From contig JAIFLR010000024.1 of the NCBI GenBank assembly GCA_020048985.1, forward strand, positions 1-64,000: a DNA stretch of 64,000 nucleotides, in the 5' to 3' direction. Of this stretch, positions 34,832-47,536 are shown piece by piece. The first letter of the stretch is position 1. Each line of letters opens with the position of its first letter. Made by a program: the position numbers and the translations under genes. The notes under the pieces were generated by a model that did not search any database, was not told where the DNA came from, and saw only the letters and a program-made list of their open reading frames with translations. Origin of the DNA: Halobacteriovorax sp. Its GTDB lineage: Bacteria; Bdellovibrionota; Bacteriovoracia; Bacteriovoracales; Bacteriovoracaceae.

Positions 34832-36367
34832 CTAACGATTCAAAAACTCAACTATATCAGGCGGAGATTGATAGAAATTGTACAGCATTCTTATTCTGCC
34901 TTCAAAGTGTGAGTCCAATAAACACAGTAGAATATAGATCGCATAGATAAAATTTCGTCGCGATCTGAGACGACTAATACTTTGAAAAATCCACTCTAGA
35001 GGCAAAATTGAAAGGAACACGACAAACCAAAGTATGCCAAAACTTTTAGTCATATCCTTATCTACAATCAGGCCAAGCACAATTACACAACCTACTAAAA
35101 TACCTAACTCCCCCATACGTTTAAAATCAATTGTGAGGTTGGATAGGAGTTTAATTTTCGGTTTTATTAACATCAAAACAAAGACAAACAGGCCAATAAA
35201 GGACAGGGAGTAAAAAGCCTTCCGCTTAATGACAACTGAGAGGTAACTCTTGAACTGATGAAGACTCATGGCGTGCTCAAAGAATCTTAAATCAATGTGT
35301 GTAATCAGAGTGAGAAGGACCAGGAACATCCCCAGGGATGTATATTTTACGAACTGGTTCCTGTACCACTCAGTGTTTTCTCTTAAAAAATAAAAATACA
35401 AAAGACCCAAGCCTACGGGAAATAAGAAAAAATTATTATAATTGAGTGTGACACCAGCGTAACATAGAAGACCATACATAAGGCCGGCACGATAAGTTGA
35501 ACTCTTCACACACCAGAGAATTGACCACACCCATAAGACTGAAAATGTAGTTGAAGCGCAAGTATAGATATCTTTTTTAAGAAAGAGGGAAAAACTCCAG
35601 GTAGAAACGAGCGCAAAGAGTCCGAGAATTGAAAGTCTGCGGGAAATGAAAAAGCGCAGTATTCCATAAAATGCCAACAAATAAATACTGAAGCTAATGA
35701 AGTAGAAATGCATGCTCCAGCCCAGATTCATTAAATGGGGAAAACGACGGAAAGGAAAAAAATTCATGTGAAGATAGCTCCACAGCTGGCCATTCATTTT
35801 CTCTTCAGGATCAACAATCAATTTAAAAGTCTCTAGATTGCTCAGAAAAGGAAAGCTGGGCATAGAGGCAAAAAACATAGCAATCGTAAGAAATAGAACA
35901 GTCTTCTCAAAAGCATCCAGATATTTATATTCGGTAAACTGGCTTGTCACAGATTCCTGAATAATTTTTCCGCGTGTCGGCCAGGAATAAAAAAGTCCCA
36001 CTACAACAAAGAAGCCCCAGAAAAAATGGCGGATAACTGAATCTGGAATAAACGACATCAGGTTGAAAATGATCATCATGGTGGCATTGCCGATAACGAC
36101 CCGGTATAGAACTCGGTCAATGGTAGAATTGGCCCTAAAGTAGATTTTGAGGCGATGATCAATCTCTTTACCTAATAGGTACCATTGGCCGGCCATAAAC
36201 ATCAGGTAAGCCAACATCATCAAAGATTGGACGAAAATGTTAATTTCTAGGGATTTCTGGATCCAAACAGGCAAAAGCAGGAACGAGAAGTAAATAACTG
36301 CTCGATTTATAAAGAATTTGGATTTTTCCCAAACTATATTTGAGTTTTTTGCTAAAGTATTTTCCAT
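34832..36367 (-). CDS. Integral membrane protein of 511 residues, glycosyltransferase-like topology
   Basis: The protein has about twelve hydrophobic segments spread over its length and short charged loops. The first large loop after the fifth segment contains VDPEEKMNGQLWSYLHMNFFPFRRFPHLMNLGW, positioned like the catalytic loop of PMT or ArnT membrane glycosyltransferases, and a poly-aromatic run follows; but no firm signature such as the paired acidic residues can be assigned. I list it as unknown, with a lipid-linked sugar transferase as the main possibility. The start codon at 36367 lies inside a divergent sigma28 promoter, so flagellar transcription may interfere with it. Confidence 0.75.
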   Translation of the reverse strand: MENTLAKNSNIVWEKSKFFINRAVIYFSFLLLPVWIQKSLEINIFVQSLMMLAYLMFMAGQWYLLGKEIDHRLKIYFRANSTIDRVLYRVVIGNATMMIIFNLMSFIPDSVIRHFFWGFFVVVGLFYSWPTRGKIIQESVTSQFTEYKYLDAFEKTVLFLTIAMFFASMPSFPFLSNLETFKLIVDPEEKMNGQLWSYLHMNFFPFRRFPHLMNLGWSMHFYFISFSIYLLAFYGILRFFISRRLSILGLFALVSTWSFSLFLKKDIYTCASTTFSVLWVWSILWCVKSSTYRAGLMYGLLCYAGVTLNYNNFFLFPVGLGLLYFYFLRENTEWYRNQFVKYTSLGMFLVLLTLITHIDLRFFEHAMSLHQFKSYLSVVIKRKAFYSLSFIGLFVFVLMLIKPKIKLLSNLTIDFKRMGELGILVGCVIVLGLIVDKDMTKSFGILWFVVFLSILPLEWIFQSISRLRSRRNFIYAIYILLCLLDSHFEGRIRMLYNFYQSPPDIVEFLNR

Positions 36368-36379
36368 AATATCCGATCA
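36353..36379 (+). promoter_or_regulatory. Sigma28 (FliA) promoter upstream of fliD
   Basis: TAAAGTAT (36353-36360), an 11-base spacer and TCCGATCA (36372-36379) match the enterobacterial FliA consensus TAAAGTTT-N11-GCCGATAA at 13 of 16 positions with the exact spacing. It points toward fliD. It overlaps the first codons of the divergent 511-residue gene. Confidence 0.8.
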
Positions 36380-36385
36380 GAATAG

Positions 36386-36466
36386 TGGACTATAACTATA
36401 GTCCAAACCTTAGACCTAATCCTCAAAAGGGAAGGTGGATTGTTCACCCACCTTCCTTTTTCTTTA
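36386..36466 (+). ncRNA. Candidate FliA-dependent small RNA or attenuated fliD leader
   Basis: Transcription from the sigma28 promoter would begin near 36386. The RNA would open with a hairpin (GGACTAT/ATAGTCC, 36387-36404), continue with about 25 unpaired bases and end at a strong intrinsic terminator (GGAAGGTGG 36430-36438 paired with CCACCTTCC 36448-36456, then TTTTTCTTT). That gives a transcript of about 80 bases. Read-through would reach fliD 90 bases later. No open frame with a ribosome-binding site is seen inside. RNA existence is inferred. Confidence 0.5.
36425..36466 (+). terminator. Strong intrinsic terminator between sigma28 promoter and fliD
   Basis: A nine-base-pair GC-rich stem with an eight- to nine-base loop is followed by TTTTTCTTT on the plus strand, with four A before the stem extending it by A-U pairs. 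On the minus strand the T tract is weak (CTTTTGAGG), so the polarity is plus. Confidence 0.85.
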
Positions 36467-36556
36467 AATCGTAGCTCACTTTCTTCCCACTTGCATCAAC
36501 TATGTCCCATGCTAACCTTAACTGTGACCCACACGCCTTTCATGGAGGAAAGAAAT

Positions 36557-37948
36557 TTGGGGATTTCCTTTGGTTCCATCAATTCAGGACTTCCTAAAGA
36601 TATCGTTCAACAGATTGTCGAGGCTGAAAAAATTCCCCTCAAACAAATGGAAGCGCGTAAGGGAAAAATTGAAGATAAAAAGGCCCTCGTAGGTCAACTC
36701 ATTACATTAGTCGAGAATATGAGGGGAGAAATCCTCAAGAATAAAGGCGCTCGAAGTCTGCGCGAAATGAAAGTTAATACTGGCGACAATCCAAACGTTG
36801 CAGTTTCTGCAGATAAAAACGTTGCGGATCCTGGAAAATACAATCTTGAAGTACTTCAACTCGCCCAAAAATCCTCTGCCATTAGTAACGGCATTGAGGA
36901 TAAAGACAAAACATATTTAGGTGTCGGTTATATAAAAGCCGTTCTTCCTAACGGGGATACCAAAGAGATTTATGTCGATCAAGAAAATGCAACTCTTACA
37001 GGCATAGCTAAACTTATCAATGCTGATGCAAGTCTTGGGATGAAAGCAACTGTCGTTAATGACGGGAAAGATGAAGACGAGCCTTACCGGATGATGATTG
37101 CCATGCAGGAAACCGGAGATGGCAATAGAGCAGAATTCCCTTATCTATATCTTGTTGATGGTGAAGTCGATTTGTACTTTGATCAGGAAAAGCCGGCCCA
37201 GGATGCAAAGGTTAAGTTAGATGGCTTTGAGATTGAGATTCCTAGTAATAAAGTGACTGACCTGATTCCAGGAGTCACGATTGATCTCAAAAAAGCTAAA
37301 ATAGGTGAAGAGATTAGTATCGATATCACCGAGGACGTAGAGAAAATTGGTGTTAAAATCACCAGTCTGGTTGATAACATTAATAATGTTCTTAAGTTCA
37401 TCAAAGATCAAAACACACTCGATGACAAAAGTGATACTTCGCGAACTCTGGGTGGTGATCTCACCCTGACTACCATTGAAAGCAAAGTCAGATCTGCGGT
37501 GTTTACACCTATTGCGACAGAGAGTGGCGCTCACCGTGTTGGTGATTTTGGAATCTCGTTTGAAAGAAGTGGATTACTGAAATTTGATTCCGCTAAGTTT
37601 GAGGCAGCCATTTCAAAAGACTATAAAGCGGTGGCACAAACCCTAACGGGAATGTATTCAGTTGAGGGTGGTAAAAGTAATGGCTTTATAGATTTGTTAG
37701 AAGAATCTGCGAAATCACTTTTAAATACACCCAACGGTGCTCTCCAAACGAGAAAGTCTGGTCTTCAAAGCCAGATCGGGAACATTGACCGACAAATCGT
37801 GACCAGGCAGCGAATGATTGCGTCAAAAGAAGAAATTTTAAAAGCGAAATTTGCCCGACTAGAAGAGACGATGTCTAAAATTCGTGGTCAGGGGGCAGGA
37901 CTTGCCGGTATGGCAGGGCCTATGAATCCAGTTCAACAATTAGGGTAG
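36557..37948 (+). CDS. fliD: Flagellar filament cap protein FliD
   Basis: FliD caps the growing filament and helps flagellin fold at the tip. The TTG at 36557, eight bases after GGAGG, gives the natural start MGISFGSINSGLPKDIVQQI; an ATG at 36542 overlaps the GGAGG and the frame upstream to 36440 shows no signal. The 463-residue protein has the FliD_N domain at 1 to about 100 (KMNVKTGDNP-like, VSADKNVADPGKYNLEVLQL) and the FliD_C region with a coiled coil near the end (IGNIDRQIVTRQRMIASKEE). Followed after 28 bases by fliS. Confidence 0.93.
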   Translation: MGISFGSINSGLPKDIVQQIVEAEKIPLKQMEARKGKIEDKKALVGQLITLVENMRGEILKNKGARSLREMKVNTGDNPNVAVSADKNVADPGKYNLEVLQLAQKSSAISNGIEDKDKTYLGVGYIKAVLPNGDTKEIYVDQENATLTGIAKLINADASLGMKATVVNDGKDEDEPYRMMIAMQETGDGNRAEFPYLYLVDGEVDLYFDQEKPAQDAKVKLDGFEIEIPSNKVTDLIPGVTIDLKKAKIGEEISIDITEDVEKIGVKITSLVDNINNVLKFIKDQNTLDDKSDTSRTLGGDLTLTTIESKVRSAVFTPIATESGAHRVGDFGISFERSGLLKFDSAKFEAAISKDYKAVAQTLTGMYSVEGGKSNGFIDLLEESAKSLLNTPNGALQTRKSGLQSQIGNIDRQIVTRQRMIASKEEILKAKFARLEETMSKIRGQGAGLAGMAGPMNPVQQLG

Positions 37949-46705: not shown

Positions 46706-47536
46706 TTAACCAATTAATCTAAGTGCACCAGAACCAAGTTGGTTTGCTTGTGCAAGTGAAGCTGTACCTGCAGCATTTTTAATTTGTGCAGATGCAAGTT
46801 TTGCTGTTGAGTCTGCTACATCGACATCCTCAATTCGAGAACGAGCCGACTCTTGGTTAACCACGGCAACATCAAGTGTGTTAATACTTGTTTGTAGTCT
46901 TGATTGAATGGATCCAAATGTTGCTCGGAATCCACTCACTTTCTCAATCGCCACATCGACAGTGCTAAGATTATCGATGGCGCTTTCTTTATCTCGAAGG
47001 TTCGAACCACCAATACCTAAACTTTCTGCTGAAGCATCAGTTACACCAGCATCAAATTCAATTCGGTTGTGCTCATTTCCCTGTGATCCAACTTGGAACT
47101 GGAGAACTGAACCTTCACCTTGTAGTAGTGATCGTCCGTTAAAGTTTGTTGTTTTAGATATACGGTCTGCTTCCTGTACAAGTTGCTCGTATTCAAGAGA
47201 GAGATAACCACGTTCGACGTCTCCCACCGTGTCTGAGCCAGCTTGAACTGAAAGTTCTCGCAATCGAGTAAGGATATTCTGCGTTTCGTTCAAGCCACCT
47301 TCGGCAACTTGTACTAACGAGATAGCATCGTTGGCATTTCTTGAAGCCATTCGCAAACCGCGAGTTTCTGCTTCAAGTTTTTTGGCGATCGCCAAACCTG
47401 CTGCATCGTCAGCAGATTTTGTAATCCGCTTACCAGATGAGAGTTTGGAGAACTCTGATTCCGCTTGGGCGGTTGAGGCCCTCAGGTTTTTTTGTACCTC
47501 TTGCGAGGCAATGTTGGTGTTGATTCTTAAGCCCAT
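46706..47536 (-). CDS. fliC: Flagellin FliC
   Basis: The 276-residue flagellin is short, with only D0 and D1 domains. The N-terminus (MGLRINTNIASQEVQKNLRA) and the C-terminus (LASAQIKNAAGTASLAQANQ) carry the conserved coiled-coil ends, and the middle has the RLSSGKRI-like FSKLSSGKRITKSADDAAGL. The variable D2/D3 part is essentially missing, as in Bdellovibrio flagellins. A near-consensus sigma28 promoter lies 70 bases upstream. Only one copy is present here; Bdellovibrionota usually have several. Confidence 0.97.
   Translation of the reverse strand: MGLRINTNIASQEVQKNLRASTAQAESEFSKLSSGKRITKSADDAAGLAIAKKLEAETRGLRMASRNANDAISLVQVAEGGLNETQNILTRLRELSVQAGSDTVGDVERGYLSLEYEQLVQEADRISKTTNFNGRSLLQGEGSVLQFQVGSQGNEHNRIEFDAGVTDASAESLGIGGSNLRDKESAIDNLSTVDVAIEKVSGFRATFGSIQSRLQTSINTLDVAVVNQESARSRIEDVDVADSTAKLASAQIKNAAGTASLAQANQLGSGALRLIG

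Follow-up and report, generated by a model that had tools for sequence, protein, structure and literature searches.

The window analysed here, 64,000 nucleotides of a Bacteriovoracaceae metagenome assembly (G000), carries between fliD and a divergent membrane-protein gene a predicted small RNA (sRNA) gene of ~81 nt (36384..36464, + strand), the product of which very probably represses one flagellin under the control of FliA and independently of Hfq. Comparative sequence analysis establishes the unit, its conservation, its antisense match to a flagellin mRNA and the co-evolution of the two partners; from these we infer its expression, a second contact with the target, the repression itself and a physiological role. 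Bacteria with several flagellins must set which of them enters the filament and when, and G000 encodes seven flagellin paralogues together with one flgL-like gene. If the proposal is true, this RNA constitutes a direct FliA-controlled switch on one flagellin, and what annotation would pass over as empty intergenic space becomes a testable regulator.

The initial annotation had described a sigma28 (FliA) promoter with 13 of 16 matching positions and N11 spacing, and this was confirmed. At 36353..36379 (+), a -35 element TAAAGTAT (36353-36360) and a -10 element TCCGATCA (36372-36379) form TAAAGTAT-N11-TCCGATCA, to be compared with TAAAGTTT-N11-GCCGATAA. Alone, the motif is at chance level genome-wide, TAAAG-N15-CCGA occurring 33 times in G000 and a reversed control 38 times, and one sequence proves nothing. 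A FliD search of the family yielded 30 loci for comparison. When the interval was aligned with these relatives, as had been proposed, TAAAG-N15-CCGA was found upstream of fliD with identical spacing (24-nt span) in 29 of 30 Bacteriovoracaceae, where it leads into an AGT-like start and then the hairpin, linker and terminator. The -35 element falls inside the coding sequence of the divergent gene (34832..36367, - strand), the start codon of which sits in the sigma28 spacer. Leucine codon 5 of this gene is TTA in 29 of 29 sequences, whereas elsewhere in these proteins TTA makes up 19% of the leucine codons; codon 4 always ends in T, though the residue varies between Thr, Ala and Ser. Such synonymous fixation at the -35 indicates a constraint on the DNA and not on the protein. 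Motif, spacing, conservation and synonymous constraint all fit recognition of the sRNA promoter by FliA, the gene for which is present in G000. Three FliA/WhiG-type sigma matches were found in this genome (C118:31295, C2:8020 and C105:23278), one of them scoring above the curated cut-off; the remaining pair may represent paralogous sigma factors that recognise promoters of a related kind.

The divergent gene encodes a conserved membrane protein for which no Pfam family was matched, and it is kept opposite fliD in the family members examined. Because the sigma28 -35/-10 straddles its start codon, any promoter of the divergent gene must lie within or beyond the sRNA region and the two units would run head-on, an arrangement compatible with an effect in cis, either by transcriptional interference or by antisense pairing to the divergent 5' UTR. 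Such an effect is extremely unlikely to account for the unit, since no conserved promoter could be located for the divergent gene and the co-evolution with a distant flagellin described below would go unexplained, although it may hold as a side effect. An antisense role on this gene was rejected for want of an assignable promoter, the one conserved candidate, a minus-strand TANNAT (36473-36468), being without a good -35.

The promoter and the conserved AGT place the probable RNA start at 36384-36386. FliA-RNA polymerase would start at ~36384 and stop at ~36464, giving an RNA of ~81 nt composed of a 5' hairpin TGGACTATAACTATAGTCCA (36386..36405, +), an unpaired linker of ~18 nt (~36405..36424, +) and an intrinsic terminator (36425..36464, +) with a 9-nt loop ATTGTTCAC (36439-36447) that includes TGTTCA (36441-36446). 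Both the hairpin at 36386-36405 and the terminator at 36425-36461 fold as initially described, and the T-run ends ~92 bases upstream of the fliD TTG at 36557, in agreement with the 90 bases first given. The predicted fold has a minimum free energy of -29.7 kcal/mol (z -3.9 relative to shuffles), equalled by 1 of 200 shuffles. A hairpin near the RNA 5' end is found in 29 of 29 relatives in unrelated sequences, the first 36 nt having a mean z of ~ -2.3. Covariation, which the initial annotation had suggested looking for in both stems, was detected: RNAalifold keeps the two stems, with compensatory changes at 14 of 17 pairs. The palindromic opening hairpin that it had noted held up in part, in that the hairpin is conserved but its perfect palindrome is peculiar to G000; the hairpin may well protect the RNA.

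A covariance model of the RNA (R1), which together with the promoter and the AGT supports the gene prediction, scored E 1.5e-19 at the locus and identified one strong locus per genome of the genus, always at fliD, with no strong copy away from fliD among 58 genomes. The exception to the single locus is G012, which has two fliD loci in an assembly that is 5% contaminated. No Rfam family scored above its gathering threshold for the sRNA. A coding RNA was considered and rejected: a GTG frame in G000 (VDYNYSPN...) spans the RNA, but neither the start nor the frame is kept in relatives, and among the 29 sequences the start-to-terminator length varies and no start codon is conserved. The predicted transcript is short, begins at a promoter and ends at a terminator of its own, and has no conserved ORF, and the family-wide promoter-hairpin-terminator unit strongly supports one of two initial readings, that of a flagellar small RNA of ~80 bases.

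The other reading was an attenuated fliD leader. fliD (36557..37948, +; FliD_C 4e-45, FliD_N 2e-13) begins with a conserved TTG and is followed by fliS and then a weak fliT match. Ahead of it lies a sigma70-type promoter (36491..36518, +) consisting of TTGCAT (36491-36496), N16 and an extended -10 TGCTAACCT (36510-36518), and every family member that carries the unit has TTGCA-N16-TGNTANNNT or a close variant between the terminator and fliD. A conserved promoter after the terminator indicates that fliD is transcribed independently, and because of it the interval is, by this sequence comparison, a stand-alone sRNA gene and not a fliD leader. Attenuation was consequently discarded: alignments A1 and A2 revealed no antiterminator pairing that is conserved, and a TTTCTTCCC block stays invariant while the terminator arm changes. 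Conditional read-through of the terminator by FliA transcripts, boosting fliD, is also very unlikely. The sRNA promoter does face fliD and the terminator ends 92 nt ahead of the fliD start, but fliD has its own promoter, an antiterminator is not conserved and the linker evolves in step with a flagellin mRNA (flagellin-3, below) instead. The control step that had been envisaged between filament transcription and cap production is not supported, the evidence pointing to the flagellin mRNA and not to fliD. Between the terminator and the fliD promoter lies a 23-nt conserved block, ATCGTAGCTCACTTTCTTCCCAC (36468..36490, +), which is nearly invariant in the genus; an activator may bind there, or it may belong to the divergent promoter.

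The putative target of the stand-alone sRNA, flagellin-3 (L064/L129), is one flagellin paralogue, located at G000:C105:18650-19480 on a different contig from the window; its orthologues are L130-L150 and L178. In the linker, a seed TAGACCTA (36411-36418, +) is antisense to the flagellin-3 mRNA over the Shine-Dalgarno sequence (SD), the start codon and codon 3. The linker word, which reads UAGACCUA in one clade and UAGACUA in the second, matches in reverse complement the flagellin-3 SD-to-start-codon stretch, CC or CCC on its 5' side pairs with the GGG after the flagellin-3 AUG, and the linker is predicted to be unpaired in the sRNA fold. Duplex energies between the linker and positions -16..+8 averaged -18.4 kcal/mol for flagellin-3 in 20 genomes and -8.5 kcal/mol for 86 other flagellin starts of the same genomes, flagellin-3 being the best flagellin partner in 20 of 20. 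As background, 721 translation starts were predicted in 0.8 Mb of G016, a complete genome in one contig, where flagellin-3 ranked first of 721 at -20.3 (next -14.5; mean -5.6, s.d. 2.3). The G000 pairing is among the weaker ones (-15.9, the seed having a single mismatch and a single wobble), and 3 of the 721 starts of another genome match this strength. The background of translation starts came from a single genome, and other targets may exist. Four genomes (G004, G005, G019 and G021) keep the sRNA while flagellin-3 was not detected in them, which reflects either its absence or incomplete assembly. A further flagellin gene lies within the window at 46706-47536 (-), ~10 kb from fliD.

The linker and the flagellin-3 start have changed together. 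Cognate pairs outperformed swapped pairs both in duplex energy (p<5e-5, 20,000 permutations) and when base pairs were counted at eight positions (139 of 160, compared with 124.5 for swapped pairs, p<5e-5), and restricting the base-pair permutation to 13 divergent genomes gave p=2e-5. These permutations ignore phylogeny, and independent double changes are the stronger argument. At p2, G014 has sRNA UAAACUA with target UAGUUUA (G-C to A-U); at p4, G015 has sRNA AGAUCUA with target UAGAUUUA (C-G to U-A); at p5, G002 has GACC with GGUC, nested among species with GACG or GACU and target AGUC. These genomes form separate lineages on the FliD tree, indicating that the three double changes were independent events. 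A further change, at p5/p6, accompanies the split between the two main clades (GACCUA/UAGGUC versus GACUA/UAGUC). The RNA therefore carries a seed that is complementary to a distant mRNA and conserved with compensatory changes, as found in trans-acting sRNAs, and the fast joint evolution of seed and target offers natural compensatory mutants in ~20 species pairs. Matching words that change together would also be produced by a shared operator, that is, by sites of one DNA-binding protein with drifting specificity. This we consider scarcely credible, because the good fit is restricted to the antisense register at the start codon (register 0: 139 pairs and the highest z, 4.4; at most 84 pairs in any other register tried), because the matching word is unpaired in the predicted RNA, and because G-U pairs, present in G000, G001, G015, G016 and G023, are tolerated as RNA pairing predicts.

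The terminator loop probably contributes a second contact. Most of the genus, and G029 as well, share the loop consensus A-N-Y-GUUCA-N, and GTTC occurs in just 13 of 885 terminator-like loops of G016. A hairpin in the flagellin-3 leader has an unpaired loop with YGAACA, 54-61 nt before the AUG. Between the two loops, UGUUCA and UGAACA can form an uninterrupted run of 6-8 pairs in 17 of 20 genomes, falling to 5 in G002 and to 4 in G006 and G013; both loops are predicted to be unpaired, and no compensatory change was observed among the 20 genomes. Linker and loop contacts come in an order that would allow antiparallel binding to a single mRNA, and docking of the terminator loop on the flagellin-3 leader loop is likely. 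The terminator loop was also considered as the sole seed on a second flagellin (L062 type), and this was rejected since UGAACA is there the arm of an older GGA hairpin, which is kept in genera without the GUUCA loop.

In the proposed mechanism, the linker and its flanking CC/CCC would pair with the flagellin-3 mRNA from just after the SD, across the AUG and into codons 2-3, while the terminator loop UGUUCA would dock on the apical leader loop UGAACA ~55 nt upstream of the AUG, so that the two RNAs would be joined at two sites in antiparallel orientation. Ribosomes would then be kept from the mRNA and flagellin-3 would be repressed, likely at the level of translation, given that the pairing takes in the start codon. 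In the predicted leader the start region is itself partly paired (mean unpaired probability ~0.3-0.6), and the sigma28 sRNAs MotR and UhpU raise flagellin levels (PMC10578931), so that pairing might instead activate, by opening an inhibitory structure or stabilising the flagellin-3 mRNA; this is unlikely, as pairing that covers the start codon and adjoins the SD occupies the classic repressive position. In the flagellin-3 leader, the -10 core CCGA never varies (most genomes read CCGAAA), and most genomes have a CTCATG/CTCAAG-like -35 at sigma28 spacing that departs from consensus. This sigma28-like promoter suggests that FliA probably drives both the target and its repressor, which would form an incoherent feed-forward loop limiting or delaying one flagellin from the moment FliA is active.

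Searches for Hfq (PF17209) gave no match in G000 and ten family genomes, each at least 91% complete, while five control genomes were positive. The pairing is thus probably Hfq-independent, and the role of Hfq may be taken over by the two hairpins together with the two contacts. In E. coli, OxyS makes two separate loop/linker contacts with the fhlA mRNA, one of them at the ribosome-binding site; OxyS is Hfq-dependent and induced by oxidative stress. The sRNA described here resembles OxyS-fhlA in its predicted two-contact mode, with no sequence relation.

The unit is also present in other genera of the family (G027, G030, G032, G034 and G035), where the linker and terminator loop differ from those of the main genus. 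With background starts taken from one other genome and several flagellins tried per genome, a flagellin of the MGxRINTNVQSL type ranked first of 722 in G035 (L172; CUCGAAUC with GAUUCGAG) and ninth of 722 in both G027 (CUCGAAAC with GUUUCGAG, a U-A to A-U change relative to G035) and G030 (CUAAUCUCC with GGAGAUUAG), these last being L173 and L184; in G032 such a flagellin (L344) tied for best in the genome at rank 13, and in G034 no flagellin partner stood out. These observations, which are weaker evidence than that from the main genus, suggest that the sRNA and a flagellin are partners throughout the family, the seed having been rewritten. The broadest form of the proposal, a family-wide, Hfq-free FliA sRNA at fliD that makes a two-site contact partly through its terminator loop, has its seed rewritten between genera yet continues to follow the start of a flagellin paralogue, and sets the flagellin composition of the filament in predatory Bacteriovoracales, has in our judgement about an even chance of being correct.

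Several sigma28-dependent sRNAs are known from E. coli, namely UhpU, MotR, FliX and FlgO (PMC10578931). The sRNA predicted here would resemble UhpU, MotR and FliX in being FliA-controlled and touching a flagellin mRNA, and FliX lowers flagellin (PMC10578931). However, the E. coli RNAs are UTR-derived, pair inside the fliC coding sequence and were studied as Hfq-bound (PMC10578931), whereas here the gene stands free upstream of fliD, the match is to the start region of a single flagellin paralogue, and the Hfq searches were negative. Short sRNAs of the flagellar cascade have likewise been described in Campylobacter jejuni: CJnc170 (FlmR) and CJnc230 (FlmE) (PMC11187230), and CjNC1/CjNC4 (PMC4626219). 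CJnc170 depends on FliA, and flagella become shorter when it is overexpressed (PMC11187230), but CJnc230 represses flgM and Cj1387c (PMC11187230), and in the parts of these reports consulted no direct pairing with a flagellin start site is described (PMC11187230, PMC4626219).

In the predatory relative Bdellovibrio bacteriovorus, FliA has taken on the role of the attack-phase regulator and drives three of eight attack-phase sRNAs (APsRNA1-7 and merRNA), from promoters with the motif TTAAG-N16-CCGATA (PMC3627812). By analogy, the sRNA described here is expected to be expressed in swimming attack-phase cells. The B. bacteriovorus sRNAs differ in length (98-655 nt, those with FliA promoters 128-655 nt), are without known targets and had no homologues found outside B. 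bacteriovorus (PMC3627812). In the open-access literature searched, neither a study of sRNAs in Bacteriovorax nor a FliA-dependent sRNA that pairs with the start of a flagellin was found. The proposed pairing concerns a predatory lineage whose genomes gave no Hfq match and in which the targets of sRNAs are not named by the papers searched.

CsrA, the gene for which is present in G000, is a further candidate partner of flagellar leaders. The RNA itself might sequester CsrA in the manner of CsrB/RsmY, given a GGA beside the terminator loop and the GGA loops of flagellar leaders; this is almost certainly not its function, because each RNA has few GGA, the GG by the loop belongs to the stem, GGA is not found in all members and the linker covariation would be left unexplained. 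Several conserved GGA in hairpin loops, as in CsrB/RsmY, were not found in the sRNA. Hairpins with GGA loops do occur over or near the SD of fliD, where CTTTC-ATGGAG-GAAAG (36537..36552, +) overlaps the SD and is conserved in most of the genus, and of flagellins, as GAAC-AUGGAG-GUUC and CTCTCAAGGATTGAGA (L061-type and L062-type leaders); by sequence they look like CsrA sites. csrA adjoins the flgL-like gene (G000:C57), a neighbourhood that would suit FliW-CsrA control. Finally, the leaders of several flagellin genes across the family (L061:1351 and L064:1489 upstream; L101-L128, L172-L185) contain a conserved uORF of 5-7 codons with its own SD. It encodes MLTGD*, MTTKD*, MVFNGG*, MIL/FTGG* or MFEGD*, and its last codons (GGA GAT/GGA plus stop) constitute the flagellin SD, making it a probable translational-coupling leader peptide.
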